50,193 nt of DNA from a virus. The stretch's first letter is position 1; each line of letters opens with the position of its first letter. This document shows positions 13,136 to 43,500 of this stretch, piece after piece. A program made the translations under genes and the position numbers. Under the pieces are notes generated by a model that was not told the DNA's origin, searched no databases, and worked only from the letters and a program-made list of their open reading frames with translations. Where the stretch lies: positions 1-50,193 of the IMG/VR virus record IMGVR_UViG_3300044630_004832. The stretch is one strand, 5' to 3'.

Positions 13136-13139
13136 TTTG

Positions 13140-15485
13140 ATGCTTACCAAACCTTTTGCTCCAACTTCCAAGAAACAGCAGTATGCGACAGTTCGCATTG
13201 TTAATAATTCCGTTTCCGATTGGCAAAATACTGTAAATTTCAAGGCCCTTCAATTTCGCAGGGCGAGAGAAATTTCAAGCATTAAATATGATTTGAAAAA
13301 CAATAATGCCATTTGGGATCCGAACGTTGGCCCGAATGGTGGTTGGCGTTGCGGCACCGATCTGACTGGAGGCGGAGAGTTTACGGACAGATACGGCCGA
13401 GGCTGTGGCGGGCGAGTTCGTCGCCTTCTTGGCGCCATAGGCGGAGCAGTCCAAACAGGGCTTCCCGGTCGTATCGGAAAGAACCCAAAGCGAGTCGCCG
13501 AAACTGTGACAAGAGAAGTTGAAGTTGCCGTGGAGCGAGACCGAAGTCAAACCGCTCAATGGTGGGAAGCGTTCTCGCCAGAGAAGCCCAAGTGGTTGAA
13601 GGTCCACGAAAACATTATGCGAAGCATTCAGGGGGATGTTCAGCCAACGTCACGCAAGATTCGACAAGCGATTTCTGCAATTGAGTCGAATTTGGATTCG
13701 GTAAACAAAATCCTGAAGAGTGGAAAACTGGCACCCAAAGAAGAGAATATTCAAAAGATCAGAGGGGACATTTACGGGGACGATTTGCTTTACCTCGAAA
13801 GTCTTCTCGATGAGGCGTATGAAAATGAATTACGCACGAATCGGGCTACGGGTGTGGCGTTGAGTCGTCTAGGGAAAGATGGCGAGCAGGAGCGGGCTAT
13901 CGCTTTGGTTAAGGCAAATACGGATGCATGGCGTCTGCAGGTTGAAGACTCAATTGCCAATGGGACTCTTCAGCAACTGTCTGACATGCTGAAACAATTG
14001 ACTCGCGAATCAGCAGGTCAGTTTAAGATTCAAACAGATCAAGAAGCAGATCGATTCGACAGGGCCGTTGCGACAGCAATGGTCCAGTTTTTTAATAAAA
14101 GAATTACTGCCGTGCAGGAAGCCGCGGCGCTTAGGGAAAAAGCATTAAAAAGGCGGCAGTCAATTCTTGATAGGGTCAAAGCGGCGGCGCGTACAAAAAC
14201 TAAACTCGGGCGCCTTGACCCATCCGTAGAAGCGTGGCTTGCAGACCCTATCGTGGCGGCGGATTATCTGCGATCTTCAGTTTCGGCAAAAGTTTCTCGC
14301 CGGGGAAATCTTGCGGCTATTCCAGATGAAGTTTTAATTGAGGCAATGATCGGACGCGATACGGTTGTTGAAGAAGTCGGGAAAGGCACAGGCGGAGGCA
14401 TTCCAATTCCTCGCATTCGGGTTGATGACCCAATAGAAGTAGAAGACATTCTTACTTCGGATGCTGGCGGATTTCCGGTCGGAACGAAGTTATCAAATCC
14501 AAGATTCGACTTTGAATTAATCAAAAACAATGCTCAACGACAACTCTGGACAGTTTGGAAAGTTGTTGATAAAGACACAGGCGAAATGTATTTTCTTAAG
14601 GGTTCTAACATGAGTGCTAACGAAGCAATTGCTGAAATTGCTGGTGCCGAGATTGCCGGATTAATTGGATTTCCTCGCGACGAAAAGTTTGGTGGAATCA
14701 GGGTCGACAAGCGGCGAACGTCTAGTTCAGAAAAACGCGCTGCCCGGTGGGTGATTTCTCGACACGTTGGCCATTATCAGCCTGACGCCTTGCGCGGCGA
14801 GCGGCTTGAGGACTTCAAAAGCGCTGCGCGTGTAGTTAGGGAGGGTGGCTCAAATGTCACTTTTGTTGAGACTCGGCCCGGGGATAGGAGTACCCGAACG
14901 GATGTTCTGGACCTTGGCCCTGAAGAGACCGCAAAGATAACTTTGCTTGACTATTTGGTAGATAACCACGACCGTCATTTTGGAAATTTCTTTATTTACA
15001 ATGACACTGATGGAGTTCCAAGAATTGCTCCAATCGATCACGGCATTGTTACTGGAGGCGAGGTTGATAGAGGATTGTCGACAGTGGTTTCCGCTGATCA
15101 GTTGGCAGAGGATGCCGCTTACAGGTCGTCTTTAACACCATTTGATTTTGGGCTAAATGTTATGCATCCAGTTTTCAATTATGTTCATGTTAAGTCGTCT
15201 GACCGGATTGCTTATTTGGACGCAATTCAAGAGTTAGTTGACACTCTTAGCGAGGCGGGCATTGATGATCTTTTATCTCCGGAGCGACTTTCAAGCAAGG
15301 GGATGAGGTTGTCCTCTACCGAGAAAGCCCATTTAGCGGCAATTGCTGAAGTCGCTAAAGCGAGGTTAACTATGTTGAAAACTAAGGGTCCGAGGTTGAT
15401 GATTAAGCCATTTCAAAATCGAATTGAAACTGATATCTCTGCCGCTGATGTGGCTTCCCGGGCTGTTACTCGGAGGGACAGGTAA
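13140..15485 (+). CDS. Head-region protein with shared N-terminal module and intact PI3K/HipA-like kinase domain
   Basis: 781 aa from the ATG at 13140 (a TTG lies just upstream). The N-terminus has the shared module: FKALQFRRAREISSIKYDLK, NAIWDPN, GPNGGWRC, GGGEFTDRYGRGCG. A helical charged middle follows. The C-terminal half has kinase features in order: an MYFLKG strand with Lys about 487, a helix ANEAIAEIAGAEIAGLIGF with Glu residues, LVDNHDRHFGNF with DRHFGN about 611-616 and PIDHG about 631-635. These correspond to the catalytic loop and metal-binding motif of PI3K/HipA-like kinases and their actinobacterial relatives. It is the best preserved of the three kinase-like domains here. The substrate is unknown; delivery into the host as a virion protein is inferred from its position. 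Confidence 0.6.
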   Translation: MLTKPFAPTSKKQQYATVRIVNNSVSDWQNTVNFKALQFRRAREISSIKYDLKNNNAIWDPNVGPNGGWRCGTDLTGGGEFTDRYGRGCGGRVRRLLGAIGGAVQTGLPGRIGKNPKRVAETVTREVEVAVERDRSQTAQWWEAFSPEKPKWLKVHENIMRSIQGDVQPTSRKIRQAISAIESNLDSVNKILKSGKLAPKEENIQKIRGDIYGDDLLYLESLLDEAYENELRTNRATGVALSRLGKDGEQERAIALVKANTDAWRLQVEDSIANGTLQQLSDMLKQLTRESAGQFKIQTDQEADRFDRAVATAMVQFFNKRITAVQEAAALREKALKRRQSILDRVKAAARTKTKLGRLDPSVEAWLADPIVAADYLRSSVSAKVSRRGNLAAIPDEVLIEAMIGRDTVVEEVGKGTGGGIPIPRIRVDDPIEVEDILTSDAGGFPVGTKLSNPRFDFELIKNNAQRQLWTVWKVVDKDTGEMYFLKGSNMSANEAIAEIAGAEIAGLIGFPRDEKFGGIRVDKRRTSSSEKRAARWVISRHVGHYQPDALRGERLEDFKSAARVVREGGSNVTFVETRPGDRSTRTDVLDLGPEETAKITLLDYLVDNHDRHFGNFFIYNDTDGVPRIAPIDHGIVTGGEVDRGLSTVVSADQLAEDAAYRSSLTPFDFGLNVMHPVFNYVHVKSSDRIAYLDAIQELVDTLSEAGIDDLLSPERLSSKGMRLSSTEKAHLAAIAEVAKARLTMLKTKGPRLMIKPFQNRIETDISAADVASRAVTRRDR

Positions 15486-16673: not shown

Positions 16674-17987
16674 ATGTCGTTTGACGAGAGTCGCCTGCGG
16701 GAACTTCAGGGTGCCCTGCGGGAAAAGATGGCCAGCAACAAGGAGATCGCTGACTCCTTCCGCGTAGAGGGCGGCACCGTTATGGTGTCGACCGAGCAGA
16801 AGAGCGCGTTCGACAAGAACATGGCCGACATCAAAGAGATCAAGTCCCTTATCGATGGCATGGAAAACATGCGTTCGATCGAAGACTGGGGCGTTCAGGC
16901 CCCCGTCGAGTCGCTTGCAGCCGCTGTGGCCGCTGGCGAATCGCTTGGTCGCTATTCATCCACCAAGAGCCTTGGCTCAATGTTCCTTGAATCAGCAGAG
17001 TTCAAGTCTCTTGATGGTGGCCGTAATGGAGCCAACATGCCCTCCCCGTTCACCCTCAGCCGAGGCGACGTCACCGGCATGTGGAACCAAAAGGATATCT
17101 TCTCGGCACTGCCGTCAGGTACCCCGGGTTCCTTCGGCACCATTGAGCGCGATCCGATCGTGGTTCCGCCAATGCGTACCCGTCGCGTCCGTGACCTGTT
17201 CCCGACTCGTACCACCACCGCTGCGGTGATTGAGTACTTCCAGATGACGGGCTTCACGAACAACGCTTCGTCGGTCGCCGAGCGCAACCCCGGCAACACC
17301 GCGTTCCAGACCAAGCCACAGTCGTCCTTCACCTTCACGGGTCAACAGGCTCCGATTCGTACGCTTGCCCACTGGGAAGCAGCGCATCGCAATGTTCTCG
17401 CTGACGAACCGCAGTTGCGTTCGATCATCGACAACGAACTGCTTTACGGCCTTCGTCTTCAGGAAGACGCCCAGATCCTCAATGGTGATGGTATTGGTGA
17501 AAACCTCACCGGTATTCTTCAGACCTCTGGTGTTCAGCAGTACTCATGGTCCAGCGGTGCAACGCTTCCGGTTCCGGACACCAAGGCTGATGCGATCCGT
17601 CGTGCAGCCACTCTCTCGTTCCTTGCTTACTACGAGCCAACCGGCGTCGTCGTGCATCCGAACGATTGGGAAGACATCGAACTGACCAAGAACGATCAAG
17701 GCACCTACCTCATGGCAGTGTCCATGCAGATGGGTTCCGAGGCTCGTATCTGGCGTATGCCAATCGTCGACACCCCGGCCATCACCGAGGGCAAGGCTCT
17801 TGTTGGTGCGTTCGGTACTGGCGCTCAACTGTACGACCGCGAGCAGGCTTCGATTCGAATCAGCGAACAGCATTCGGACTTCTTTGTCCGCAACGCAATC
17901 GTGATTCTTGCCGAGCAGCGCCTCGCCCTTGCGGTGAAGCGTCCAGAGTCGTTCGTCGAAGTTACCTTCAACAACGCTCCTGCCTGA
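16674..17987 (+). CDS. HK97-fold major capsid protein
   Basis: 437 aa. Residues 1-60 are helical and charged, like the scaffolding delta domain. The rest reads as a phage_capsid family protein: an N-arm, VPPMRTRRVRDLFPT, EYFQMTGF, PQSSFTFTGQQAPIRTLAHWEAAHRNVLADEPQLRSII (given here in parts: the E-loop/spine helix region), then LLYGLRLQEDAQILNGDG, the P-domain feature GVVVHPNDWEDIELTK, IVDTPAI and a DREQASIRISEQHSDFF A-domain strand. This forms the icosahedral shell. Codon choice is richer in C-ending codons than in its neighbours, as expected for a highly expressed gene. It has a strong ribosome binding site and its own terminator. The prohead protease usually precedes it directly; here about 15.7 kb intervenes. 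Confidence 0.93.
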   Translation: MSFDESRLRELQGALREKMASNKEIADSFRVEGGTVMVSTEQKSAFDKNMADIKEIKSLIDGMENMRSIEDWGVQAPVESLAAAVAAGESLGRYSSTKSLGSMFLESAEFKSLDGGRNGANMPSPFTLSRGDVTGMWNQKDIFSALPSGTPGSFGTIERDPIVVPPMRTRRVRDLFPTRTTTAAVIEYFQMTGFTNNASSVAERNPGNTAFQTKPQSSFTFTGQQAPIRTLAHWEAAHRNVLADEPQLRSIIDNELLYGLRLQEDAQILNGDGIGENLTGILQTSGVQQYSWSSGATLPVPDTKADAIRRAATLSFLAYYEPTGVVVHPNDWEDIELTKNDQGTYLMAVSMQMGSEARIWRMPIVDTPAITEGKALVGAFGTGAQLYDREQASIRISEQHSDFFVRNAIVILAEQRLALAVKRPESFVEVTFNNAPA

Positions 17988-18405: not shown

Positions 18406-18653
18406 TAGTGGCCATCTACGAAGTTATCCCACAAGAGGGCTTCATACATTTCAGATGAAACAGCGACAAAGCATTCCATACAGCGAGGTGGCTGTGATGG
18501 AGCATCACTTGCTATTACGTCAAACACGGGTTTTTCAATTTCACAACTAAAACAGAATCCGTGATTGACAGGGCTGAGCCATCCAATTTCGACTGCCCTT
18601 AAAATGGCAGCCTCCATGGCGGTTTCTAGGAATTCTGGATCTTCAAAGATCAT
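18405..18653 (-). CDS. Small zinc-ribbon-like protein downstream of nrdJ
   Basis: 82 aa from the ATG at 18653, which overlaps the nrdJ stop as ATGA; an ATG at 18665 would give four more residues. CFSC and CMEC, about 25 residues apart, form a likely zinc site. The N-terminus is helical and acidic. It sits between nrdJ and a DUF6197-like gene in one translationally coupled operon. No specific function is recognised; a small redox or zinc protein assisting the reductase is only a guess from context. Confidence 0.6.
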   Translation of the reverse strand: MIFEDPEFLETAMEAAILRAVEIGWLSPVNHGFCFSCEIEKPVFDVIASDAPSQPPRCMECFVAVSSEMYEALLWDNFVDGH

Positions 18654-20572
18654 CGGACTGGGCATGCGCCAGTAGCGCAGGACGGGTCGTCGAGCAAGTT
18701 GTCATCGACGGTGGAGCCGATTGGAATGCTCATATCGACCTTTGCGACCATTTTGTCGTAAGTCGCTTCGTCAATTTCTTCGTAAGGGGCAAGAAGGAAA
18801 TTGTGGTCCGAATGCAACAAGAAAGAAACCGACTTGACAGACGTGTCGAAATTTTCGCTGAGCCATTCTTTAATGCTGGGTAGTTCTTCCATGCGGTAAT
18901 AGACCGTGACGGAAACAGCGTTATCGGCCCATTCGGTTTGCATTTTTTTAACCCATTGGAGTTGCTCCACGGCGGTCATGTCCGAAGCGAGGATCGCGTT
19001 GTCTGGAGATTTGGCCGGGAATTCCACAACCCATTTGGTGTGATCCTCTCGTCCGTCAAGCCCGATTTCAGGGACCACGGTGTATCCACGTTGACGACAC
19101 GCATCAACGAGGGGGTCTGCTGCGCTGAATCGGACCCTGCGAATGTAGAACCGGGCGTATGCCGGGTGAATGCCCGGTGTGACGCCGGGGAGCAATGAAA
19201 GCGTGCCGGAGGGCTGAACCGTGGTGAGGCGCACAGAGCGAGGAATCCCCAAGGCGTCGGAGTGCTTCTCGTCAAGGGCTTTCAAGTACTCGTATCCGCT
19301 GTCAAGCCATGACAGTTGTTCTTTGTTCGCTTGAAGTACGCCAGTGATTGATTGTCCAAGACGTCGGTTTTTAGCGACGATGCGGTTTGTTTTTGCGTAT
19401 GGGTAACGAAGGTTTGTGATCTGTTTTTGAACAAGGTAGAGAAGGCGACTGATCTCTTTAAATTGCTTGAGTGACTCTACGTTGGGGAGGAAGATTGTTG
19501 CCAAGTTGCATGATTCCCCGTCGGCTAACGCAATCTCGGCGCATGGGTTAAATCCCTCGATTGACGGGTCTGGTCGCTTTTCTCCAAGGCGCCCGACCGT
19601 TCTTGCAAGTTTCCGGTTGAGTAGACCGTATGGCTCTCCAGAGCCGTCATAGCCCTTCCAGAGTTCTGACATGATCTCATCGAACCCGTCCGCGTAGATT
19701 GAGTTATTTGAGTTTGCGCGCCATGCAGGGACCGTGCCTGAAGCCCAATTTTTTGCTCTCAGGAATAGGATGTCGTCAGGGTCGCCAATAGCGATTTGAG
19801 CGGAGCGACGGCTGGATCCAGAAACCACGATTCGACCGATGATGTTAGCAATATCGAGAACGTCTACTGATCGGAGTTTCTTGCCTGCTCGGTTGTCCAT
19901 GACTTTGCAAATATCAGCGATTCCGTCAATGAGTGAGCCGGGTCCTGAGGCTGTTCCTCCAAACGTTTTGAGTGGGGCGCCAAATTCGCGGATGAGCATC
20001 GTGGAGTAGGAGAACGATTTCCCTGTGTAGAAATATGACTTAAGCACGGCGTGGAGGATGCGCTTCCATCCTTCGCGGCTGTCGGGGACAATAATGTCTG
20101 CATCGTTTGTTCGTTCGTGGAGAATCTCTACCCCGGAGCGAATCTTTGGGAACTCATGGATTTTGGAGCGTTCTACGGAGAATCCGACTCCACCGCCGAG
20201 CATTAGGTGGTCGAAAAGGAACTCAAAGTCTTCAATGCTCTCGATGTTGACAAAATAGCAGTTGTTAAGTGAAGCCCCATTAAACTGTTGAACGAGGGGT
20301 GTTCCTAGTTGCCATAGTGCGCGACCGCTGAAAGAGCAGCGGAGATGGAACATATGGTCAAAGAGCATTTCTGCTTCTTTGTCCGTATATGGGGTTCCGA
20401 TTTCGATAGCGCCGTTGATTACGCGAGCGACTGTTTCGGGCCAAGTTTCGTTTCGGTTTTGATCTTCGATGAATCGGCTGTAGGTCCGAAGGTAGACAAT
20501 TTCGCCTAATCCGCCAAATCCCCATGGTGGCTGCTTGGTTGCGTATGACTTTAAGAATGCTTCTGAAAGCAC
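18650..20572 (-). CDS. nrdJ: Adenosylcobalamin-dependent (class II) ribonucleotide reductase, monomeric RTPR type
   Basis: 640 aa, GTG start with AGGAG about 12 bases upstream. Reduces ribonucleotides to deoxyribonucleotides for phage DNA synthesis using coenzyme B12. Key residues are visible: C105 in LNNCYF (disulphide partner), FNPCAE with the thiyl C344 and nearby Asn and Glu, C355 in ESCNLATI (second redox Cys, 11 residues later as in Lactobacillus RTPR), QPSGTLSLLPGVTPGIHPAY, and a C-terminal C-x4-C pair (CATGAC) that relays electrons from thioredoxin. It is shorter than the 739-residue Lactobacillus enzyme. It is the second gene of a four-gene minus-strand operon. Such reductases are common in actinobacterial phages. 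Confidence 0.95.
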   Translation of the reverse strand: MLSEAFLKSYATKQPPWGFGGLGEIVYLRTYSRFIEDQNRNETWPETVARVINGAIEIGTPYTDKEAEMLFDHMFHLRCSFSGRALWQLGTPLVQQFNGASLNNCYFVNIESIEDFEFLFDHLMLGGGVGFSVERSKIHEFPKIRSGVEILHERTNDADIIVPDSREGWKRILHAVLKSYFYTGKSFSYSTMLIREFGAPLKTFGGTASGPGSLIDGIADICKVMDNRAGKKLRSVDVLDIANIIGRIVVSGSSRRSAQIAIGDPDDILFLRAKNWASGTVPAWRANSNNSIYADGFDEIMSELWKGYDGSGEPYGLLNRKLARTVGRLGEKRPDPSIEGFNPCAEIALADGESCNLATIFLPNVESLKQFKEISRLLYLVQKQITNLRYPYAKTNRIVAKNRRLGQSITGVLQANKEQLSWLDSGYEYLKALDEKHSDALGIPRSVRLTTVQPSGTLSLLPGVTPGIHPAYARFYIRRVRFSAADPLVDACRQRGYTVVPEIGLDGREDHTKWVVEFPAKSPDNAILASDMTAVEQLQWVKKMQTEWADNAVSVTVYYRMEELPSIKEWLSENFDTSVKSVSFLLHSDHNFLLAPYEEIDEATYDKMVAKVDMSIPIGSTVDDNLLDDPSCATGACPVR

Positions 20573-21802: not shown

Positions 21803-22227
21803 AGCAAGCGCCACGTCGACAAATCGAAAGCATTGATCGAGTTGGTGACTGGGGAGACGTCACCTACAGGCATAATCTGTCATGCGGACATGCGGAGATT
21901 CGGAAACGTAAAAGCACCAAAACTCATATTGCCTGCATGGGCTGCTTGAAGGCCTTTGATTTTCAAAACACAGCCTCTCCAGTGGTCCCACGGATTGAGC
22001 CGGTAGAACCCGTACTTCCGGAATGGACCGTTATAGAAGAAACCGCCTCGGGCGAGGCTCAGATAGAAAGACTTAGGGCCGCTATTGCAGCCCATAATGG
22101 CATTGCTGTCGATGCTGTCGATGTGGTTACGTCACAGCAGACGGCAGCCACGGAAGTCGCGTATGTCTTGGCTTTTATCGATACTGCTTCAGCGCTCCGA
22201 ATTCTTCGAAAAACGCACGATACTTGA
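21784..22227 (+). CDS. Hypothetical zinc-binding protein (SCGH...CMGC type)
   Basis: 147 aa from the GTG at 21784; a TTG at 21703 would add 27 residues but lies deep inside the upstream gene. The N-terminal part has LSCGHAEIRKRK, then IACMGC, a C-H-C-C pattern I associate with small actinobacteriophage proteins. The C-terminal part is helical and Ala-rich. The stop lies 24 bases before the whiB ATG. DNA-binding is possible, but no specific function is known. Confidence 0.6.
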   Translation: MAQKSLKQAPRRQIESIDRVGDWGDVTYRHNLSCGHAEIRKRKSTKTHIACMGCLKAFDFQNTASPVVPRIEPVEPVLPEWTVIEETASGEAQIERLRAAIAAHNGIAVDAVDVVTSQQTAATEVAYVLAFIDTASALRILRKTHDT

Positions 22228-22250
22228 CAAAACCCTATACGCTTGTATTT

Positions 22251-22532
22251 ATGAACACTACAGAGACTGATGAATGGGCTTGGGTTGCCGACGCAGCGTG
22301 TAAGGGGTATGACCCCAATATGTGGTTTGAGCCGACCGTAAATGATTTTGAAACTCAAGCAAAAAATAAAATTGCTAAATCGATTTGCTTATCCTGTCCG
22401 GTTAGGGACATGTGCCTTGAGTATTCTTTGCATTTCGAGCGTTACGGGATTTGGGGTGGGCTTGCTGCTAATGATCGAGAAAAAATTCGTCGCAGAAAGC
22501 ACATAGACATAATTGTTCGTCGCCTAATTTAG
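22251..22532 (+). CDS. whiB: WhiB-family iron-sulphur transcription regulator
   Basis: 93 aa from the ATG at 22251; an upstream TTG at 22224 would add nine residues and overlap the previous stop as TTGA. C17, C46, C49 and C55 (AACKG, CLSCPVRDMC) are the four ligands of a 4Fe-4S cluster. GIWGG and the basic EKIRRRKH tail complete the WhiB signature. WhiB proteins bind the host primary sigma factor and occur only in Actinobacteria and their phages. The WhiB of mycobacteriophage TM4 blocks host septation and aids superinfection exclusion, so a similar host-control role is plausible. A TATACG nine bases before the ATG could give a leaderless transcript. Confidence 0.92.
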   Translation: MNTTETDEWAWVADAACKGYDPNMWFEPTVNDFETQAKNKIAKSICLSCPVRDMCLEYSLHFERYGIWGGLAANDREKIRRRKHIDIIVRRLI

Positions 22533-22662: not shown

Positions 22663-23157
22663 ATGATTACTAACATGCAAAACGCACTCACCACATCCGA
22701 CATGGTCACAGTCCCCGTCATTAGGAATATCAGGGAATCTAAAAATCTCTGCCTTGACTTTGACGCCGTACTCACCGCAGGGCCATCCCTCCGAGAAGTT
22801 AACTGGGGTCACCCCAATCACACCGTCATTGAATTCGACGACGTATGTGACCCAATGGACAATGCGCCACAAATGACCCACATCGAAAAAATCGTTGACT
22901 TTTCGATTGCCTCAAACTCCAAGCGAACGCTAATCCATTGCCACGCAGGCATGTGTCGTTCAACTGCCTCCGGAATCATCTTTCTCCTTACCCATGGAGT
23001 AGACGCCGAATTGGCCGTATCGACGCTCGCTTCAATTCACCCCGAAGAACGCACTTTCTGTCCGAATCCACAAATGATCAAACTTGCAAGCACATTCTTC
23101 GATTTGCCGGAATTGTCCGAAATCGTCGATTCCCACATCTACATCCCCAGCAGGTGA
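22663..23157 (+). CDS. Dual-specificity protein phosphatase-like protein
   Basis: 164 aa. LIHCHAGMCRSTAS at residues 90-103 holds the Cys-based phosphatase P-loop HCxxGxxRS, with nucleophile C93 and R99. The upstream VIEFDDVCDPMDN region can supply the general acid Asp. After the P-loop come the helices typical of this fold (ASGIIFLLTHGVDAELAVSTL in parts). It would remove phosphate from protein Tyr/Ser/Thr or another phosphoester. The stop lies 4 bases before the deacetylase-fold gene, so the two are probably co-translated. It could oppose the kinase-like domains at 7344-15485, which is inference. Confidence 0.82.
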   Translation: MITNMQNALTTSDMVTVPVIRNIRESKNLCLDFDAVLTAGPSLREVNWGHPNHTVIEFDDVCDPMDNAPQMTHIEKIVDFSIASNSKRTLIHCHAGMCRSTASGIIFLLTHGVDAELAVSTLASIHPEERTFCPNPQMIKLASTFFDLPELSEIVDSHIYIPSR

Positions 23158-23161
23158 TCAA

Positions 23162-24034
23162 ATGACCCACAAAGTTTTTTTCAATAACGATTATGTGGCT
23201 TGTAATTACTCATTCGACACAACTCGCAAATCTGAAGAGATAGCAAAAAGTCTTAAAAATGTTTCTTCTGTATCCATAGAGGATCCATCCGCGTTTACAA
23301 AGACCACAGAAAACGTAATTCAACAGATTCACTCACCCGAGTATGTGCACGCCGTGAAAACCGGTAAGCCGCTACACCTTGCTGAATCTCAGGGGTTTCA
23401 ATGGGATCCTGACATTTACACGATGGCCGTTGCTCACAACTCCGGGGTTGTGGCCGGGGTAGATCTGGTGCTGCACTCCACCGAGCGTTTTGTCGGAACC
23501 CTGTCTTCCGGCTTACATCATGCTAGTCGTGAGGCTGGCGAAGGTTTTTGCACTTTCAATGGACTGTCAACGGCCAGTCAGCATGCTCTTAATTGTGGTG
23601 CCGAGCGGGTTTTGATTTTAGACTTCGACGATCATTGTGGTGGAGGGACCAGATCAACAACTGATGCCACGAAGGTCATCCAAGTTGATGTGTCAACAAA
23701 CTATTACGACTCCTATAGCCCGGTCAATGAATTCGACTACTTTTCATGCTCTAAAGTTGGTGCCTACCTAAAAGAAATCACTCTTGCTCTTCAGCATGCA
23801 GCCACTCTTGGTGGATTCGACCTCGTCATTTACAACGCTGGCATGGACCCCGCAAACAGCGGCGTGGACTACCCCACACTCCTCGCCCGTGAAGCCTTTG
23901 TATGCGAATGGGCACTCACTCAGAATGCGCCTTTGGTTTACACGATGGCTGGCGGTTACCTTGGAGCCGAGTTGGACATGGACGGACTGGTCTCGTTGCA
24001 TCGCTTAACAATCGACACGTTTGCCTCTGCCTGA
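23162..24034 (+). CDS. HDAC-fold deacetylase (histone deacetylase / acetylpolyamine amidohydrolase family)
   Basis: 290 aa from the ATG at 23162, preceded by AGGTGAT; a longer frame upstream overlaps the phosphatase gene and is rejected. Family motifs in order: the active-site His pair H119-H120 in SGLHHAS, GEGFCTFNG, DFDDHCGGGT with metal ligands D156 and H158, YNAGMDP with metal ligand D229, and AGGY with the transition-state Tyr at 266. This is an intact zinc amidohydrolase removing acetyl groups from lysine, polyamines or related amines. Such genes are rare in phages. It is coupled to the phosphatase gene and followed after 25 bases by the metallopeptidase gene. Confidence 0.88.
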   Translation: MTHKVFFNNDYVACNYSFDTTRKSEEIAKSLKNVSSVSIEDPSAFTKTTENVIQQIHSPEYVHAVKTGKPLHLAESQGFQWDPDIYTMAVAHNSGVVAGVDLVLHSTERFVGTLSSGLHHASREAGEGFCTFNGLSTASQHALNCGAERVLILDFDDHCGGGTRSTTDATKVIQVDVSTNYYDSYSPVNEFDYFSCSKVGAYLKEITLALQHAATLGGFDLVIYNAGMDPANSGVDYPTLLAREAFVCEWALTQNAPLVYTMAGGYLGAELDMDGLVSLHRLTIDTFASA

Positions 24035-24059
24035 TCCATTCTTGCCATAAACTGTGAAC

Positions 24060-26774
24060 ATGGCACGTCGTCGCAACTTGCGCTGGATGAATCGAATTAG
24101 AGCATTGGGTCGCGGCATTGGCGCCGGATCTTCAAACGACCCAAGAGACGGAGACGGCGACGGTTTCTATAGTCGAAAGCCGGGGATGCCAGATGAAACC
24201 CCAGTCCCCGCGCGCGTTGGGGCGAGTGAGACTTCTTCCGCGCGTGGGATCGGAATCCAAGACAGGTTTGCAGAAATTTTCTTAGCGAGAGACAGTCAGT
24301 TCACCCTTGAAAATCAACGCGAAGCCCATAAATCTGCCTTAGAGCGACAGCAGAGGGTCATCACCAAATATGGCGATATTCGATCAAAACGAAAAGCCGC
24401 ACAGGCGTTGATGCGCGCTTATCCAAACTCGAACTTTCGTGATCTTTTTGATGATCAAGACCGAAGCCTCAATGACGCCGCTTTCGACATGGTCGTTGGA
24501 ATGCTCGACATGGCTGACCAATATCCAAAGATTGCGCTGAGAACCCTCGTCATTAAAAAGGATAAAGGCGGAAAAGAGCGCGGCGGCAGTCACACGTTGA
24601 CGGATAAAAGATTGTCAGGGCTACATATGAACAATCCGGCACCGATTGGACACATATTCTCCTTGAATACTTCCTACGCCGCGATCGAAAGGATCACAGA
24701 CGAAGACAACGATCCTGCGACTTCAGCCTTCCCTTGGGCATTACTAATGGGCTTAGCAATGAAAGAAAACTCCTCTGAGTTTTCCGATGAAGACGTGGCG
24801 CGGATTGTTAATCAGGGAATTGCGGTCCACGAGTTCGGCCACGCCCTTCACGCATCCTATGGGTTTGAATGGCATGGAATGTTGCCCGAAGGCAAACCCG
24901 GTCCGACTGATGGTTATGAAGATTCATTGTTTGACGTTTTGGATAGATTTTATACATATAAAATATCAAGCGTAATTGATATTGATGAAGTTAAAGAAGC
25001 GTGGGACGACGCATCGGAAACAAAGCAACAAGAATCCCCCATTAATAATCCGACAGAAAACCATGAACGCTTAATTGAAGTTGGACGCACAGTAATTAGA
25101 GATATTGTGGAGCGTGAGGGACTCGTCGATGACGCCGTTAAAGAACTAACACAAAAGTGGGTAAGTGAAATTGCGGCTCGCCACTACTGGGATGGCTATT
25201 CAGGCGACCCGGAAAAACGCCTAAATCTTCGAAAAGGCTTGAGCAAAGTTTCCACATACGCAATAAAGGGTAATCGAACTGATCCATCTAGCCAATATAT
25301 AGAAGGCGTTGCTGAGACTTTCAGTGCGCAACAGTTTGGCTATCGCGCTGAGGCGGAAGCAGTAAGGGAACATATTGTTGAGATAATGAAGCAGGCGCAA
25401 AAAGTTGCCACTCAAGAAACCAAAGGATACGAATTCGATCCAGATCGAGTTGACGAGAATTTCAACAAGCCGATTAAAGGCGAATTACCCGTCGCGCAGG
25501 GTTGTCTGGGACTTGAACCGCTGCCGCTTGAAACTGTTGATCGCGAGGCTCAACGCGCTCCGCGCAAACTTAAAGGGAAGGCTTTAGGTGCGCCCATCGG
25601 GGGAACTGATGAGCCTCAAGATGGCGACAATGATGGAAAGTACACAGCGGTTCCGGGTGGCGAAGACAATGTCCCCATGCCCCCAAAATCCGTTAAGGAA
25701 GTCGTTGAGTGGGAAAGAATACAAGACATCATCAACTTCGATGTTTTCTCAGAAAGAATCACCGATCTAGATGAGGACGACGCTGCGTATGACGTCCGTC
25801 AGCAGGGTGTAGATGCATGGAGCATGTGGGGGGCGTGCAGATCCATTAGGAAAGCCGCTTACAGGTTGGCCGGACTTTCCCCAGATATTCAAGACCCGAA
25901 CATTGAACGTCAAGGCGGATACTTTGGTGGCGGTTGGGAAGTGGCAGAAGACGATGATCAAATCACCGAATACGCGAGATACTTCATGGCCGAACTTGTT
26001 GTTGGCACGCGCGGTGGATATTCAGGAAATAACCGAAGCCTTTTTCGGTCTGCTGATGTCGATGAAGATGAACGTGAAGGGTTCGAGAAGGCGATGTCTA
26101 AGGGTTCAATCGTTGACATTCCTCTTTTAGCGACCGCAGATCGTCGCAGCCAAGGCTTGAAAGAGTATTTGACGAGATACGGCAAAGACTATTTGATTGA
26201 AATCGAAAGCGGTGCGGAAAGTGCCGAAGCCGGAGCATTCGATCCGATGTGGAGCCGAAAAGACGAAGACGACACCCTGAACCGAATCGAGGGGCTGGCC
26301 CAGTCAATACAGGATGAAATCGATGCTGGTTATTTCGATGATGATAAAGACGAAAAAAAAGAACGCGAAGAACAAGTAAAACTCATGCGCGAACTTGTTG
26401 ATGCCTACGAAAAGGCGCGTGAAGAAAGTTCCGAAAAGCGAGCCAAGGCGCGCGAACAACTCGCAGAAGCAGTCTCCGATTATTTCGGTGGGGACGTAGA
26501 AGGCACCTTCGAAGACGGTGAAGGTTTGAACTGGGAAGGTGAAGAGATAACCGAAGATGACGGGCAAGCCTTTTGGGAGGCTTACGACTCGCTGTACATG
26601 GGCGGATATTCCGAAACCCAGCCAAGAGAACAAATAACGGGTGGCAGATTCGAAGTTCGTGAAGTAGCCGAAGACCCTGAAGGTGTTTACGGCAAAATCA
26701 TTAGGTTGCGGCAAATCGGTGTCTTCGATCCGCAAAACCCCGGTCTTGTAGTCCCCAAAGTAAAGAAAGACTAG
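24060..26774 (+). CDS. Zinc metallopeptidase with C-terminal ADP-ribosyltransferase-like domain
   Basis: 905 aa from the ATG at 24060 (a GTG lies six bases upstream). A basic N-terminus leads into PRDGDGDGF, a Ca-binding-like DxDxDG loop. IAVHEFGHALH at about 254-264 is a zincin HExxH site; a later EGVAETFSA at about 415 can supply the third ligand. A second loop, QDGDNDGK, lies near residue 520 and starts a second half. That half has LFRSADVD, VDIPLLATADRR, YLIEIESGAES and near the end REQITGGRFEV, then KIIRLRQIGVFDP. This order matches the R, S/T and E elements of ADP-ribosyltransferase exoenzymes, with E of REQ as the possible catalytic Glu. The peptidase motif is clear; the transferase call is tentative. 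Confidence 0.6.
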   Translation: MARRRNLRWMNRIRALGRGIGAGSSNDPRDGDGDGFYSRKPGMPDETPVPARVGASETSSARGIGIQDRFAEIFLARDSQFTLENQREAHKSALERQQRVITKYGDIRSKRKAAQALMRAYPNSNFRDLFDDQDRSLNDAAFDMVVGMLDMADQYPKIALRTLVIKKDKGGKERGGSHTLTDKRLSGLHMNNPAPIGHIFSLNTSYAAIERITDEDNDPATSAFPWALLMGLAMKENSSEFSDEDVARIVNQGIAVHEFGHALHASYGFEWHGMLPEGKPGPTDGYEDSLFDVLDRFYTYKISSVIDIDEVKEAWDDASETKQQESPINNPTENHERLIEVGRTVIRDIVEREGLVDDAVKELTQKWVSEIAARHYWDGYSGDPEKRLNLRKGLSKVSTYAIKGNRTDPSSQYIEGVAETFSAQQFGYRAEAEAVREHIVEIMKQAQKVATQETKGYEFDPDRVDENFNKPIKGELPVAQGCLGLEPLPLETVDREAQRAPRKLKGKALGAPIGGTDEPQDGDNDGKYTAVPGGEDNVPMPPKSVKEVVEWERIQDIINFDVFSERITDLDEDDAAYDVRQQGVDAWSMWGACRSIRKAAYRLAGLSPDIQDPNIERQGGYFGGGWEVAEDDDQITEYARYFMAELVVGTRGGYSGNNRSLFRSADVDEDEREGFEKAMSKGSIVDIPLLATADRRSQGLKEYLTRYGKDYLIEIESGAESAEAGAFDPMWSRKDEDDTLNRIEGLAQSIQDEIDAGYFDDDKDEKKEREEQVKLMRELVDAYEKAREESSEKRAKAREQLAEAVSDYFGGDVEGTFEDGEGLNWEGEEITEDDGQAFWEAYDSLYMGGYSETQPREQITGGRFEVREVAEDPEGVYGKIIRLRQIGVFDPQNPGLVVPKVKKD

Positions 26775-27010: not shown

Positions 27011-27721
27011 CTACTCACGGACAACACTCATGTCGGCGTGTCCACGGCTTTCTACGGAACCAATGCACTCTGGGTAATGGCGACCGATGCAGTCTTTGCG
27101 GACATAGGTCGGCACGCCATGAAAATGAAGCGCATCGTAATGAAGGCAAGGATCGTCGGACATTTGAGTTTCAAGGTCCCAGCGCCAGCGTACGAATCGA
27201 AGCAAGTCCCTGCGAATCATGATAAATGCCGCAGTGGCCATGTGCTCTTGCACTGGGAATGGGTATCTATCAACGACCGGCCCTTCAAGACAGTACGTTG
27301 AAACCTCTCCGCCAACTAAGGCGTGATCGAGTTCGAGCAACTTGTCGATTGCGTCACCGGGCGGTTCGCAGTCGGCCGCCATAAAGAGAAGATGCGTGCT
27401 TGTTGGAACGGAAATCGTGTAGTCCGTAACAATGTTTTGACCAAGCGTGATGTGACGAAGTCTGTTCTTCGTTGTGACTTCGGTACGTCCATCATCAAGT
27501 GAGTATGTGAAGTATTCACCGCCGACTTCAGCAAGACGGTCTAGTAGGGGCTGAAATGGAGCGATTCCCCTAGCGTCAACTTCGATTGCAGCAAAGAAGT
27601 GAACTGGATAGCCAGCCTCAGACCCACGCTGTTGCATTTCTTCAGCGGTTCTGATCCATGCTCCCCATGTGTCCGGGTCGTCCATAATGAAGGCTGCGCA
27701 CGTTGTTCCAACAACAATCAC
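27011..27721 (-). CDS. GT-A-type glycosyltransferase
   Basis: 236 aa from a GTG at 27721 that overlaps the methyltransferase stop by 4 bases (GTGA); a longer frame upstream only reads through that gene. The N-terminal VIVVGTTCAAFIMDDP strand, the middle THLLFMAADCEPPGDAI with an acidic DxxP-type metal site, LVGGEVSTYC and a late IMIRRDLL are typical of small GT-A transferases that use a nucleotide sugar. It is the last gene of a three-gene operon with an epimerase and a methyltransferase. A likely job is adding a modified sugar to DNA, virion or host surface; the acceptor is not evident. Confidence 0.65.
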   Translation of the reverse strand: MIVVGTTCAAFIMDDPDTWGAWIRTAEEMQQRGSEAGYPVHFFAAIEVDARGIAPFQPLLDRLAEVGGEYFTYSLDDGRTEVTTKNRLRHITLGQNIVTDYTISVPTSTHLLFMAADCEPPGDAIDKLLELDHALVGGEVSTYCLEGPVVDRYPFPVQEHMATAAFIMIRRDLLRFVRWRWDLETQMSDDPCLHYDALHFHGVPTYVRKDCIGRHYPECIGSVESRGHADMSVVRE

Positions 27722-28293
27722 TTCATGCTCCAAATCTGGTAGGAGTAGGTGTCTGAAAACACTACGTCGATTCGACAGATGGTTTCTCCCCATCCGGATT
27801 TATTTAAAATACTAAGCAGGCCCTCTTGGTCCCAGCCCCAAAGATGCTCCGGGTTAGCCTCGCCGTCTTCGTCAAGGTCTTCGCCAATGGGAGTTGAAAG
27901 TAAAAGCAGCGTTGATTTTTCGCGAATCTTGCGAAGAGCCGCTTCTGGGTTTTCTAAATGCTCAATGGTTTCTGAAAGTACAAATAGATCCACATTAGGA
28001 ATCTTATCAATGGTCTTGCTTATGGGTCCAGTAAGGTCATAACCCTTTGCAAAATCGCCAAGAAACAGCGTCGTGTTCTCATCGGCAATACCTTTGGGGA
28101 TAGCAGCATTACCGGTGGAGAGATCCGCTATCGAATGAATAGGGAACTGACGTCCCAGCCATTTGCCCATTTCGATAGTTGACTGGACCCTTATGTCGTG
28201 GCTGGAACCCCACGCCATGTGGTCGTGAGGCTCTGGGTAGAGTTCTTTCAACTCCACGCTGTCTGGATTGGTTCGAAGCCGTTTAATGTACAT
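27718..28293 (-). CDS. Class I SAM-dependent methyltransferase
   Basis: 191 aa; the ATG shares bases with the epimerase stop (TGATG). SIADLSTGNAAIP is motif I for SAM binding, followed by FLGDFAKGYDL, then VDLFVLSETIEHLENPEAALRKI, the post-I region of methyltransferases, and LLLLSTPIGED. GHLWGW-type residues (PEHLWGWDQEGL) resemble sugar or small-molecule methyltransferases. In context it may methylate the sugar made by the epimerase or its product. Confidence 0.8.
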   Translation of the reverse strand: MYIKRLRTNPDSVELKELYPEPHDHMAWGSSHDIRVQSTIEMGKWLGRQFPIHSIADLSTGNAAIPKGIADENTTLFLGDFAKGYDLTGPISKTIDKIPNVDLFVLSETIEHLENPEAALRKIREKSTLLLLSTPIGEDLDEDGEANPEHLWGWDQEGLLSILNKSGWGETICRIDVVFSDTYSYQIWSMK

Positions 28294-29186
28294 CAGGACT
28301 TGAGGGCCTCAGCGATTCCTTGTTCCAAGGAGATCTTTGGCGTGTAGAAATTGCTGAGTTCTACGGTGCTTCCAACCCGGTAGACGGCACCAATCGGCTC
28401 GTCTTTGAAATGAACGATTTCGCCAGTGTAGCCAGCGGTTTCCATAAACTTCTCGGCAAGGGTGTTGAAGTCGGTTGCGATTCCCGTTCCAAGATTTAAT
28501 GGGCCGTCAATGTCTTCTAGGCCCACAAGGATCGATGCTGCGGCCACGTCATCGATGTGGATGAAGTCTCTGACTTGAGTTCCGTCTCCCCAGACAGGAA
28601 ATGGGTTGACTCTTTCCCTAGCCCGTTTTGCAAATGAAGGGAAGGGGTAGTCGAGGTCTTGGTCCGAACCGTATCCAGAGAATGGTCGGAGGACTGAAAC
28701 TTGTCCGCCAGATTTCTGGTACCAATGAGCGAGATGTTCGCCGGTTAACTTTACCCAGCCGTAAGATGTGTCGGGCGTTCCAACGGTCTCCTCGCCAATA
28801 CGGATGTCTGACTCTTTTAGTTGATAAGCGTCCTTCTGTAAGTGCATGGGGTAGGCGGCGCTAGATGAGTAATAAATGATACGTCGAGGCTTCTTACGTT
28901 CTGCCCATTCGAAGAGCGCAGCGTCCAACTGGAGGTCTCTGGTGGCAAGCGTGAGCGGTTGATACTCAATGGTGTGGCGACCACCGACTAAAGCGGCGCA
29001 GTGGTACACGAGGTCAAACGCTGGTCCATCGTCGTCTCGAAAGAACTGTTCTGCGGATTTCCCGGATTTTAGATCAATGCCAACAATGTCGACATTGAGG
29101 TCAGAGCGACTTTTGAGTTGATGCTCTAAATGACGACCGATAAAGCCTTCATTGCCTGTAATCAATACTCTCAGGGTTACCATCAT
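28293..29186 (-). CDS. NAD-dependent epimerase/dehydratase (extended SDR family)
   Basis: 297 aa, first gene of the sugar operon; a second ATG is three bases downstream. LITGNEGFIGRHL is the GxxGxxG NAD-binding loop. YYSSSAAYP, YGWVKLTGE with the catalytic YxxxK, VLRPFSGYG, GDGTQVRDFIHIDDVA and LNLGTG are all hallmarks of nucleotide-sugar 4,6-dehydratases and 4-epimerases. It converts an NDP-sugar for the glycosyltransferase encoded two genes on. The promoter should lie in 29187-29263, divergent from the DUF932 gene. Confidence 0.9.
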   Translation of the reverse strand: MMVTLRVLITGNEGFIGRHLEHQLKSRSDLNVDIVGIDLKSGKSAEQFFRDDDGPAFDLVYHCAALVGGRHTIEYQPLTLATRDLQLDAALFEWAERKKPRRIIYYSSSAAYPMHLQKDAYQLKESDIRIGEETVGTPDTSYGWVKLTGEHLAHWYQKSGGQVSVLRPFSGYGSDQDLDYPFPSFAKRARERVNPFPVWGDGTQVRDFIHIDDVAAASILVGLEDIDGPLNLGTGIATDFNTLAEKFMETAGYTGEIVHFKDEPIGAVYRVGSTVELSNFYTPKISLEQGIAEALKS

Positions 29187-32353: not shown

Positions 32354-32429
32354 TCCGGTGTGGTGTAACTGGCAACACGCCTGACTTTGGATCAGGAGAG
32401 TCCTCGTTCAATCCGAGGCACCGGAGCCA
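32354..32429 (+). tRNA. tRNA-Gln (anticodon TTG)
   Basis: Full cloverleaf: acceptor TCCGGTG/CACCGGA, D-stem GTGT/ACAC, anticodon stem CCTGA/TCAGG with loop CTTTGGA (anticodon TTG), T-stem CCTCG/CGAGG with loop TTCAATC, discriminator G and an encoded CCA. It reads CAA, the codon used for nearly every Gln in the neighbouring C-rich genes. Confidence 0.95.
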
Positions 32430-35535: not shown

Positions 35536-36600
35536 ATGGGATACTTCCTTCTTGATAACCCGCCAGCAAGCCGCCAGTTCCATACAGGGCGCCCTAATGG
35601 CCTCTCTGGTGGTGTCGTTATCCACACGACTGAAGGTGTTGGAGGTGACGATTCAGCGGAGAACACAGCCCGTTATATTGCCCGTCGCTCCACCCCGGGC
35701 AGTTATCACATGATTGTTGACACGAATTCGTCTGTCCCTATGCTGCCCGACGATCATGTGGCGTTCGGAGTCGCAGCGTCTGGCTACAACAGCCGTTGCT
35801 GGATGATTGCCATTGCTGCTCAGTCCGCCGCTCTCAACCCTGACTCCCCTGAAAGCCAGACGGAGATCGATCGCATGGGTCATGAAATCGTGGAGTTCTG
35901 GCGTCGCAACGGGATTGACCCCAAGTCGGCTGCCCAGTTCATTGGTGAAGAGGTCAAAGATCGACCCGGCCTCGCCCATCACGGGGATGTGCAGCCTTCA
36001 GATCGAAGCGACGCTTGGAGTCGCCGTGAGGATCGATGGATCTTTGACTCGATGCTGGTTCAGGCCATTGAACGTCATTCGGGTGAGGTCATTTCGACTC
36101 CTCCCCCTGTTGCGCTTCCGGAACTTCCTGAGTCAGCGGTCTGGCAGCAGGGTTCGACTGGGGACAAGGTCCGTGCCATCCAAGGGATCGTGGGAGTGCC
36201 TCAGGACGGCGTATACGGCCCTCTCACGGCTCAGGCGGTCAATCAATGGCAAGCCAACCTCGGCCTTGCTGCTGATGGAATCTGGGGTCCACGGACCGAA
36301 GAGGCCACGAACAACCTCTTTGCCTTCCTCGCGAACCTGCCTGTGGTTCAGGAAGTGGCTCCCAACAATCCATTCTTCGAAGCCCTGAATGAAGCAGTGA
36401 AGCAGATTGTTCGTCCGGGTGCATCCGGTGGTCCTGTCAAGATGATTCAGGCAAGTCTGAATGGGCGGGGTTACCCACTCGTCGCTGACGGCACTTTTGG
36501 CCCTCGGACTGAAGCGGCTCTACGCAAGTTCCAATCAGACCGTGGCCTCACTTCAGACGGGATCGTTGGCCCCAAGACTTGGGCTGCTCTCGTTTCCTGA
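35536..36600 (+). CDS. Endolysin: N-acetylmuramoyl-L-alanine amidase with two peptidoglycan-binding repeats
   Basis: 354 aa from the ATG at 35536, with AAGGA six bases upstream; the frame is open for 33 codons upstream but without a ribosome binding site. The N-terminal 170 residues are an amidase_2 domain: GGVVIHTTEG with a zinc His near 30, YHMIVD, then GLAHHGDVQPSDRSDAW with the second His and catalytic residues. Two PG_binding_1 repeats follow (GDKVRAIQGIVG...DGVYGPLTAQAV; VKMIQASLNGRG...DGTFGPRTEAAL). It cuts the amide bond between muramic acid and the stem peptide during host lysis. No holin is recognised beside it; it has its own terminator. Confidence 0.9.
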   Translation: MGYFLLDNPPASRQFHTGRPNGLSGGVVIHTTEGVGGDDSAENTARYIARRSTPGSYHMIVDTNSSVPMLPDDHVAFGVAASGYNSRCWMIAIAAQSAALNPDSPESQTEIDRMGHEIVEFWRRNGIDPKSAAQFIGEEVKDRPGLAHHGDVQPSDRSDAWSRREDRWIFDSMLVQAIERHSGEVISTPPPVALPELPESAVWQQGSTGDKVRAIQGIVGVPQDGVYGPLTAQAVNQWQANLGLAADGIWGPRTEEATNNLFAFLANLPVVQEVAPNNPFFEALNEAVKQIVRPGASGGPVKMIQASLNGRGYPLVADGTFGPRTEAALRKFQSDRGLTSDGIVGPKTWAALVS

Positions 36601-36657: not shown

Positions 36658-36678
36658 TATTAGACCAACCTTTGTGGG
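36629..36678. repeat. 14-bp direct repeat linking terminator loop and tRNA-Lys 3' end
   Basis: CCAACCTTTGTGGG occurs at 36629-36642 (terminator loop and stem) and again at 36665-36678 (3' flank and acceptor stem of tRNA-Lys), 36 bases apart. Confidence 0.6.
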
Positions 36679-36746
36679 AGTGGTGGGGGTCGAACCCACG
36701 CTCGTCGGATTAAAAGTCCGCTGCCTTACCGCTTGGCCACACCCCC
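36675..36746 (-). tRNA. tRNA-Lys (anticodon TTT)
   Basis: On the minus strand: acceptor GGGGGTG/CACTCCC with one G-T pair, a D-arm starting GGCCAAGCGGTAAGGC, anticodon stem GCGGA/TCCGA (one mismatch-type pair) with loop CTTTTAA (anticodon TTT), T-stem GTGGG/CCCAC with TTCGACC-type loop, discriminator A. CCA is not encoded. It reads AAA, favoured by the A-rich phage genes. Confidence 0.93.
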
Positions 36747-40356: not shown

Positions 40357-40597
40357 TCTTGATTGGTTTGCCGCTCTCGTCTACAGGTTTCCAGTAACCG
40401 CGAGCAAGCGCCGATTGAATGTTGATTTGCACAATCACGTTGGACGTATGGTTCTGCAATACGCCAAGGTTGTCCTTGAGTTGATACAGCGATGCGTCTT
40501 GTCCCTGAACGGCAATGAGTTTCGCATTGGCGGGAACGCGATCCATTTCAATCATTGGAATCGGTTCTGGCATTTCCATGTCATCTTGAGTTTTCAT
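40349..40597 (-). CDS. Small hypothetical protein between the giant gene and the helicase
   Basis: 82 aa; ATG overlaps the giant gene's stop (ATGA) and its end overlaps the helicase start by 8 bases, so all three are translationally coupled. N-terminus is Met/Pro/Glu-rich, then KLIAVQGQDASLYQLKDNLGVLQ and NVIVQINIQSALARGYWKP, a small beta-helix pattern. No family is recognised. Confidence 0.6.
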   Translation of the reverse strand: MKTQDDMEMPEPIPMIEMDRVPANAKLIAVQGQDASLYQLKDNLGVLQNHTSNVIVQINIQSALARGYWKPVDESGKPIKNG

Positions 40598-43500
40598 TGA
40601 TCAAAGCCCCTTGGGGATAAAGAGAATGGGATGTTGCGGTCTTCCAGAAGTTTAACTAGAGCAAGCGGAACTTCAGATATGTCAGCATACGGAAGAATGA
40701 CCTTTTCGATGTCCTCAATGTCGACACCTCCATGGATCTGGGCTTCAGTGTACTGGTATCCCATCCAGTTTGAATCCCCTATTGATCCAACCCTGAATAC
40801 CCCACTGTCTAAAATTAACTTTCGAAGCATCGCTTCTTTTCTTGGCGATTGCCGTCGCATGAGACCCTCCATCGCCAAAATAGAAATCGTTTGATGGCTA
40901 GGTGCGCCGCTAAACGACAGCATGTAGACGATGTTCTTGACTCTGTCCAAGTCGATCTCGTTGTCTTCTGTAAAGTAACCAAGAACAGCACCGATTTCCT
41001 CAAGGACTGTTTCGTCTAACGGAACTACTGCACCTCGTGATCCGAAGGAATCTCCAATAGTGGCAGTCGTGCGATCCCGAATCTCGCCCCTCAAAATGAT
41101 CTGATGGTCGCCATAAGGGCGAGACGATTGATTCGGGGGGACGTCTGTCAGCGGCGTTACTACCAATTCGTCATCTTCGTTCCATCCGAAATCGCGCTGC
41201 TGATCTGCAAAGAATCCATAGATGGGACGCAGGGTCTCTGGCAGGTTTTGGGGGATCCCCATAATACGATTTTCAATATTTTGCCGAAATTCTGGAGCAA
41301 ACGAGCCTTGACTGTAACCCGTTTCGAACTGACTTTTCACCCTGCCTTCCTCCAGAACCAACAACAGGGCCTCACTGCCAATTGCGATCCGAATAGGACC
41401 GCTTGTGAGCAATTCGATTTCGTCTCGATATGCCTCAACAATTGCATCAGCGATATCTGCATCGAAATGTTCAGAAAACATTTTTTCGAGCAAATCATAT
41501 GTCTGGCCGTGCATCATGATGGAGTTGCGGCCCGGACGGGTTATGCGACTCAGTTCCTCGCGAAATGCTTCAGGGCTAACAATGATTGGCCCAAACATGT
41601 CAACTAATTCATCAGCGGCTCTTGGACTGTCAAGGGCCATTGTTTCGCTCAGTTGATCAAGGAAAGTTTCGATCAGTTTACTTAGGAAGAGTCCACGGAC
41701 ACCCTCCACCTGTGTCGCCATGTACTGCCTCATGCGGTTTTGCATGTCGTCTGTTTGTACAGAGTACAAACCTGAAACTCCCGGCATGTATCGACGCCGA
41801 ATGCTTTTACGATCAGGAATAGGTCGATCACGCCGCGCGTCCACCCCAGAAGGCACCTGTGGTGTCTGCCCTTCAGGCACAGGTGCAAGAGGCGCTGCCG
41901 CCGGACGTGCCGTCTGACGCACCGACGACGCTCCAAGTTCCTGCAACGAAGGCGTACCAACATCAGAAAGAGGCGAACCACGCTTCTTCGGTTTCGCTGC
42001 ATCCACTTCACTTCCAACAGGCTTCGGCACTTCGCCTTGCTCAGCCGGTTCCGGCGTCAAACGACCAAGGTCTGCACCAATCGTGCCTTCTTCCGGTTTC
42101 GGCATGTACGTTGGGACGTAATTCACTTCGTTTCCGGCTGCATCCCGAATGACAAGGTTGTTTGGTCGTGCCGTGATCGACGTGGATTGAATTCTCTGTC
42201 CACGAGTTACAGGCTTTCCGTCTATGTAAAGTTTCGTGCCAGCCGGGCGTTCCCATACAGTCCATTCTTGAACAATCCCATCCCCATCGCCGTCACGGGC
42301 ATCTGGGTCATAGGGTTCATCGATGAGCGCTGCTCGTCTACTTGCAGCCTTCGCTTCAATGCGGGGTCCAACAAAAGCCTTTGTGTCGGTTTGTTCAGAC
42401 GCATTTGGTGTGATGAACTTCCAGCCAACGTCGGTTTCCAAAGGAACCCTGCCGTCTGCGGTAACCACGGGAATTGAGCGCTCCCTTGCCAGACGCAGGA
42501 CCTCACGAATGTCCTCTCCGAGAGATTCCGTAGAGTTGGGAAGCACGATTTCGGCTACATCCTCTAAGGCGACGCCACCGTGAATCTGGGTTTCAACGTA
42601 CCTAGGGTTTTGGGGTCGGATCATGGCTTGTGCTTCTTCTGAACGGATTCGTCGGAGCACGCCTCGGCGTAACTCTTCGGGCAGACGGTCAATCCATGCG
42701 CGAGCAGCGATGCTTGCCGCAGCCTCATGAAAGTCATCTGAAACGGCGGCATGGAGAAGCCCAGTCCGTACGTCCCCTCTAGAGCCGTTGGTGGGGTCAG
42801 GGAATGATGCAAGCAATGCTTCACGCGCTGCTTCCGTAAGAGGAACTGCAGTGCCAACGCTTCCGGTCATAGAGTCACCGAAAGTCGCTGTAGTTCTTGC
42901 TCTCACATCGTCTTTAAGACGGAACAGGACAGGACCATGCATTGTTGCTGCGTCTCGTGTTGGATCTGGATCTAACTGTGAATTGCCAGCGAAGCCAGCA
43001 TCAGGGGTTCGTGGAATGAACCCGTAGATCGGTCTTCCTCGATCCGCCGTGTCTCGCGGAACTCCAAGCAATTCCGATTCCACCGAGGCTCTGTCTCTCA
43101 ACGATTGGGTGAAGCCTTCCGGTTGTGTCTCGAAATGAGTTTGAATTCTTCCTTCGGCGATGATGGTTGCTGCTGTGGATTCAGTTGCGGGGACATAAAT
43201 CTGTTTGACGAGTTCCCTGTCGGCATACTCATTCAATGCGTTGTCGATGAGTTCATTGATGAAGTCATCGTCACGCTCCAGCAGTGGGGTGAGTTTCTCT
43301 GCTAGCCATTCCCGCCGCAGCCTTGGGTCGCTAACGTCGACTTCTTCACGGCCTAAAGCATCACGAATGGCGCTCGACAGGCGCTCCCATTCGAGATCTC
43401 CCTCTTCCCCTTTGCCGACATCAGCGAGGAGATCGATGAGTTTCTCCATCATCAGTGACTTTGTTGCTGCGCGACTTGTTGCTGCTCTTTCGATTACCGC

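Follow-up and report, generated by a model that had tools for sequence, protein, structure and literature searches.

The window analysed here, that is, the whole stretch of DNA under study, is a virus record of 50,193 bases. Its phage-type genes encode a major capsid protein (16674-17987), a class II (B12-dependent) ribonucleotide reductase (18650..20572, minus strand; Pfam RNR_Alpha 5.3e-24; neighbour cluster 3), a WhiB-like regulator (22224..22532, plus strand; Pfam Whib 2.4e-17; neighbour cluster 8) and a phage-type SNF2 helicase. Downstream of the WhiB-like gene lie two intact plus-strand open reading frames, as the sequence-only reading had recognised. One encodes P0002, a dual-specificity-type (R-P superfamily) cysteine phosphatase of 164 aa with an ATG start (22663..23157), and the other encodes P0001, an HDAC-fold zinc amidohydrolase of 290 aa (23162..24034) that begins with the ATG at 23162 and ends with a stop at 24034. 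They are separated by four bases (23158..23161, plus strand), and the HDAC gene may have its ribosome-binding site in an AGGTGA stretch that overlaps the stop of the phosphatase gene. An alternative in-frame TTG start is present upstream at 23084; the starts of the relatives lie near the ATG. The WhiB-like gene, a neighbour common to several HDAC-bearing phages, indicates an actinobacterial host, and the ribonucleotide reductase likewise accompanies the pair in related phages (cluster 3 occurs in 13 viral loci). The phosphatase-deacetylase pair is carried by a virus of Actinobacteria.

Several other features of the window deserve mention. A protein of 906 aa encoded right after the HDAC gene (24054-26774, plus strand) contains a HEFGHALH stretch resembling a zinc-peptidase motif; Pfam and PHROGs gave no family for it. 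A very large multi-domain phage protein of 2512 aa (40594-48132, minus strand) combines DUF3626 with an RNase_T exonuclease domain, and an NAD-dependent sugar epimerase (28293-29186, minus strand) adjoins a weak methyltransferase match (27718-28293, minus strand). The window also holds tRNA-Gln (ttg) at 32354-32429 (plus strand) and tRNA-Lys (ttt) at 36674-36746 (minus strand). Direct megablast of positions 1-25000 against phage records returned no match.

P0001 matches Pfam Hist_deacetyl (PF00850) with E=5.5e-23 and 82.2 bits, above the curated cut-off of 27.9. In an alignment to HDAC8, whose residue numbering we take as the reference for the active site, its zinc ligands are D156, H158 and D229, its tandem His residues are H119/H120, and its catalytic Tyr is Y266, located in a GGY motif; D154 is also present. 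The ligands, the tandem His and the Tyr are invariant across 49 aligned rows. Thus, the metal ligands and the catalytic Tyr named in the sequence-only reading are indeed there, but the HDAC set is not complete, since the second-shell position that corresponds to Asp183 of HDAC8, the acid partner of the catalytic His, is Gly161 in P0001 and Gly in 49 of 49 relatives. In some HDAC classes, this position is occupied by Asn. The Asp/Asn partner of the second His, a criterion for the HDAC superfamily, is therefore absent from P0001. As Gly161 is not a zinc ligand, its presence limits the claim of normal catalysis and not membership of the HDAC fold superfamily. Directly following the ligand His, 48 of the 49 rows have Cys, Gly or Ala. 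Asp157 is unique to the window HDAC, with Ala in the other 48. With the signature FDTTRK…GLHHA…DxDAH[C/A/G]GGGT, P0001 belongs to an uncharacterised HDAC subfamily, for which PHROGs holds no family matching P0001 and which was not reported in the literature searched for phage deacetylases.

The AlphaFold2 model of P0001 has a confident HDAC (arginase/deacetylase) fold (pLDDT 95.8, pTM 0.93). Its closest structure is HdaH of V. cholerae (9gkv; Z=35.3, rmsd 1.9 over 278 residues), followed by Leptospira HDAC11 (9gz5; Z 34.3), with acetylpolyamine amidohydrolases lower, at a Z of about 31. The window clade lacks the loop (PFEGC..G...GI) that most other bacterial members, those of polyamine operons among them, have after the third zinc ligand, so that the entrance to the active site, and perhaps the substrate, should be different in this clade.

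The match of P0002 to Pfam DSPc (E=3.1e-5, 24.2 bits) lies below the curated cut-off of 33.5, and the family call is backed by the fold and the phosphatase loop. The loop, H92-C93-HAGMC-R99 (HCHAGMCR), conforms to the HCX5R pattern, and the best PDB matches of the AlphaFold2 model (pLDDT 80.9) are dual-specificity phosphatases, with a Z of about 11. Cys93, Arg99 and Asp60 are invariant in an alignment of nine phage rows, and Asp60, upstream of the P-loop, is a candidate general acid. When P0002 was the only query sequence, neither phage records nor viral contigs yielded relatives; these surfaced only beside an HDAC gene or through a profile search. Stand-alone relatives were met on two Acidimicrobiia contigs (G231 and G008), with no adjoining HDAC in the stretches read.

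Counting the window, 12 viral contigs have the order phosphatase then HDAC, the two genes being a few bases apart; in the other 11 (L006, L010, L011, L103-L108, L115 and L116), the phosphatase is directly upstream of the HDAC gene. Relative to the window, their HDACs are roughly 40-50% identical and their phosphatases 35-39%. Some of these contigs are near-copies (L010/L011, L103/L105 and L106-L108), and many have further neighbours in common, namely the ribonucleotide reductase, the WhiB-like gene and a 103-aa protein; hence, the contigs represent fewer independent cases, from roughly six lineages. In L010 and L116, the further neighbours differ. Chance does not account for the pairing. Viral HDAC-fold proteins and phage dual-specificity phosphatases (DSPs) are already known; a conserved phage DSP-HDAC pair was not found in the literature searched. 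More distant viral HDAC-fold proteins (L123-L162, e.g., L133 and L145) have an Asp/Asn where HDAC8 has Asp183, show the motif DGDGHHGDG or DLDMHYGNG, and form separate families.

Bacterial matches to the HDAC came from about 300 loci, and gene contexts were read for the best 80. No relative found is more than 55% identical to the window HDAC. In the tree, the window HDAC forms a supported set (97/91) with seven Acidimicrobiaceae genes, and most of the other phosphatase-linked phage HDACs fall in the neighbouring set. A single origin of all phage HDAC copies was not supported, the viral rows being scattered on the tree.

Among the best 80 of the about 300 loci, an ADP-ribose-type context was found in Acidimicrobiia, Mycobacteriales, Planctomycetes and Thiocystis. 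The neighbours of the HDAC genes in such loci are ARPP-1, ADP-ribosylglycohydrolases (ARGs), R-P phosphatases, NrtR-Nudix regulators, vWA, HD_4 and cREC, never all in one lineage. ARPP-1 lies beside the HDAC gene in L233 and L239 and directly upstream of it in the close relatives L023, L024, L026 and L027; in L024 (DSP / ARPP-1 / HDAC), it was recovered by profile only, gene-caller output being unreliable for neighbours in G+C-rich loci. ARGs are found beside the HDAC in L025, L068, L078, L233, L238 and L239, and five ARGs at HDAC loci are fused to a DSP or vWA domain. In the close relative L025, an ARG-DSP fusion is located about 0.9 kb downstream of the HDAC gene. The other host loci read NrtR-Nudix / ARG-vWA / ARPP-1 / DSP / HDAC / HD (L239), ARG-DSP / NrtR-Nudix / DSP / HDAC (L238) and HDAC / ARG (L068), while L233 contains ARG-DSP, ARPP-1, DSP, HDAC and vWA, and L078 contains an ARG-DSP-Macro arrangement. 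A vWA gene is upstream of the HDAC in six Mycobacteriales loci. In Thiocystis (L083, L096 and L097), a gene for cREC (cyclic-phosphate-processing receiver) directly follows the HDAC gene or overlaps it.

The linkage was surveyed in 296 Acidimicrobiia genomes, of which 13 have the HDAC (16 genes), 26 have DSP and 30 have ARPP-1. HDAC and DSP occur together in 11 of the 13 HDAC genomes (Fisher p=1.7e-11), and HDAC and ARPP-1 in seven genomes (p=6e-5). A DSP gene lies within 5 kb of nine of the 16 HDAC genes and an ARG within 5 kb of five, with about 0.07 expected in each case. These p-values are indicative, since one genome (G225) accounts for three of the five HDAC-ARG pairs and since genes next to HDACs were the source of the host DSP profile, a choice that somewhat favours the HDAC-DSP link. 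The sparse occurrence of the family in the sampled hosts and the identity ceiling of the window HDAC led us to reject the recent capture of a strictly host housekeeping gene, a possibility that the sequence-only reading had named as fatal to its proposal. The phage phosphatase shares just 12-17% identity with the HDAC-adjacent host phosphatases, too little to establish joint capture of the pair.

Known ARG-centred conflict systems list ARG, R-P phosphatase, ARPP, Nudix/WYL regulators, vWA, HD and Macro as components (Iyer, Burroughs, Anantharaman, Aravind 2022, PMC9503650, section 3.8), and a text search of PMC9503650 gave no mention of HDAC. The host HDAC loci have those components as neighbours, cREC not being among the listed ones. 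The presence of the HDAC subfamily in ARG-type loci was not reported in the literature searched, and we suggest from these gene neighbourhoods that, in bacteria, ADP-ribose-processing conflict operons centred on ARG often have a member of the subfamily as an accessory enzyme, or more exactly that the bacterial members often serve such operons in that way. The phage pair shares with them the coupling to an R-P phosphatase, placed four bases upstream of the HDAC gene; it consists of phosphatase and HDAC only, with no ARG, ARPP-1 or regulator found in the phage fragment, and because the 50-kb fragment has no ARG, we do not file the pair as an ARG-centred operon. PADLOC matched neither the phage pair nor the host proteins of L239 and L238.

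Among characterised deacylases, the cluster 5 / class IV enzymes HdaH (9gkv) and HDAC11 (9gz5) share the tandem His, zinc ligands and Tyr of P0001 and are its closest solved folds, HdaH being retrieved by profile as well (6e-44). However, the identity is about 23%, and P0001 has Gly where they have Asp/Asn at the HDAC8 Asp183 position. Phages are not mentioned in the main text of the reports on these enzymes (PMC11532494, PMC13325672). The putative histone deacetylase gp202 of Rhodococcus phage E3 (HM114277) is a member of the same subfamily, 45% identical to P0001, but it is not preceded by a phosphatase and in the larger tree stands outside the window clade, near Rhodococcus genes, so it is probably a separate acquisition.

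It is more likely that the pair handles ADP-ribose-type molecules than that it generally erases protein marks, because the nearest bacterial relatives of the HDAC reside in small ADP-ribose-processing operons. Our preferred account, held tentatively and with somewhat less than even confidence, is that the phage pair is a two-enzyme fragment of an ADP-ribose-processing network that performs the same chemistry during infection. Both enzymes would be catalytically active in a common substrate pathway: the phosphatase would remove a terminal phosphate from an ADP-ribose-derived small molecule or an ADP-ribosylation-marked target, and the HDAC-fold deacylase would hydrolyse an acyl-amide or ester on such a molecule or target, so that a host signal or adduct would be neutralised or recycled, in a presumed counter-defence. 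No HDAC-fold enzyme is known to act on ADP-ribose. The viral records also argue against this account, given that the window fragment contains neither ARG nor Macro, that 11 of the 13 other viral records with an HDAC lack ARG (the matches, two in 14 records, are in those of L009 and L017), and that no Macro domain was found in any of the 14. The record of L009 (G322) is a 147.5-kb virus with a subfamily HDAC, and its ADP-ribosylglycohydrolase match is at 35954-36199 (minus strand), about 10 kb off. The many bacterial HDAC loci without an ARG-type neighbour weigh in the same direction, as do the betaproteobacterial members located in polyamine transporter operons.

These members are the basis of another explanation, which we regard as unlikely, namely that the HDAC is an acetylpolyamine deacetylase acting as an auxiliary metabolic gene, which would supply translation or DNA packaging with putrescine or spermidine released from N-acetylpolyamines, with the phosphatase as an independent neighbour. 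In ten betaproteobacterial loci, the HDAC gene is the end of a PotABCD/PotFGHI-type polyamine transporter operon, several of these genes overlap the permease gene by four bases, and L045 adds glutamylputrescine-synthetase-like and aminotransferase genes. Moreover, Imitervirales encode active acetylpolyamine amidohydrolases, with homologues reported only in giant viruses (PMC9992855). They are viral HDAC superfamily enzymes like P0001, but they were found with the M. ramosa APAH (cluster 4) as a query, are about 345-354 aa long and belong to a different subfamily. Cluster-4 polyamine deacetylases carry an RPPGHH motif (PMC11532494) that is absent from P0001, which reads LSSGLHHA (SSGLHH at the motif). 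Further marks of cluster-4 enzymes are an L2 specificity loop and a head-to-head dimer; solved APAHs have 341-348 aa, and P0001, at 290 aa, was modelled as a monomer. The bacterial acetylpolyamine amidohydrolases, with which the sequence-only reading proposed a comparison, fit by operon context one betaproteobacterial branch and no other. The polyamine context is confined to that one subclade, whereas the ADP-ribose context is scattered over the tree, which by parsimony favours the ADP-ribose role as the older one; in addition, the PFEGC..G...GI loop of the polyamine-operon enzymes is missing from the window clade, and the recurrent phosphatase partner is left unexplained.

The pair could also act during takeover on proteins of the host or the phage, stripping them of phosphate and of acetyl or longer acyl groups, a reading to which we give a similarly low probability. 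The DUSP-like phosphatase fold is consistent with such a role, as is an HDAC fold nearest to HdaH and HDAC11 (Z 34-35), which are acyl-lysine or fatty-acyl enzymes (PMC11532494, PMC13325672). The sequence-only reading had gone further and proposed that the phage both writes and erases phosphorylation and acetylation, with the help of kinase-like and GNAT-like domains encoded elsewhere. This proposal is not supported: Pfam found no GNAT-like domain or other acetyltransferase in the ORFs scanned, and the kinase-like domain, probably that of a 782-aa protein (13137-15485, plus strand), amounts to weak matches to PI3/PI4-kinase and HipA_2, neither of which reaches the curated cut-off. The conserved bacterial partners are mainly ADP-ribose genes (ARG, ARPP-1, NrtR-Nudix, vWA and HD) and not, as a rule, protein kinases or acetyltransferases, and no finding links the pair with acetylation of proteins. 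Finally, the two could be independent accessory genes that are adjacent in one related phage group by shared descent, with no joint function. The neighbours common to many of the 12 contigs would fit this view, as would the other HDAC phages, in which a ParB-like gene is upstream in place of the phosphatase. Nevertheless, adjacency has been kept through long divergence, as protein identities of 35-50% show, the further neighbours of L010 and L116 differ, and both families adjoin in host genomes too; we find shared descent by itself improbable.

The observation of the pair holds, and its interest is greater than the sequence-only reading stated, though for another reason. Should its substrates be acetylpolyamines, viral polyamine release would be extended from giant viruses to phages of Actinobacteria. 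A bolder form of the ADP-ribose account, which we consider rather unlikely, is that bacterial ADP-ribose conflict systems include a hitherto unrecognised deacylation step, carried out by the subfamily, and that phages took up the phosphatase-deacylase part as an enzymatic counter-defence of a new kind, by which immune signals or adducts derived from ADP-ribose are reversed or cleared. If this were true, the predicted bacterial ADP-ribose conflict operons would gain an acyl-removing enzyme, their chemistry could be tested with a defined two-gene phage cassette, and the presence of HDAC-fold proteins in phages would in part be accounted for.
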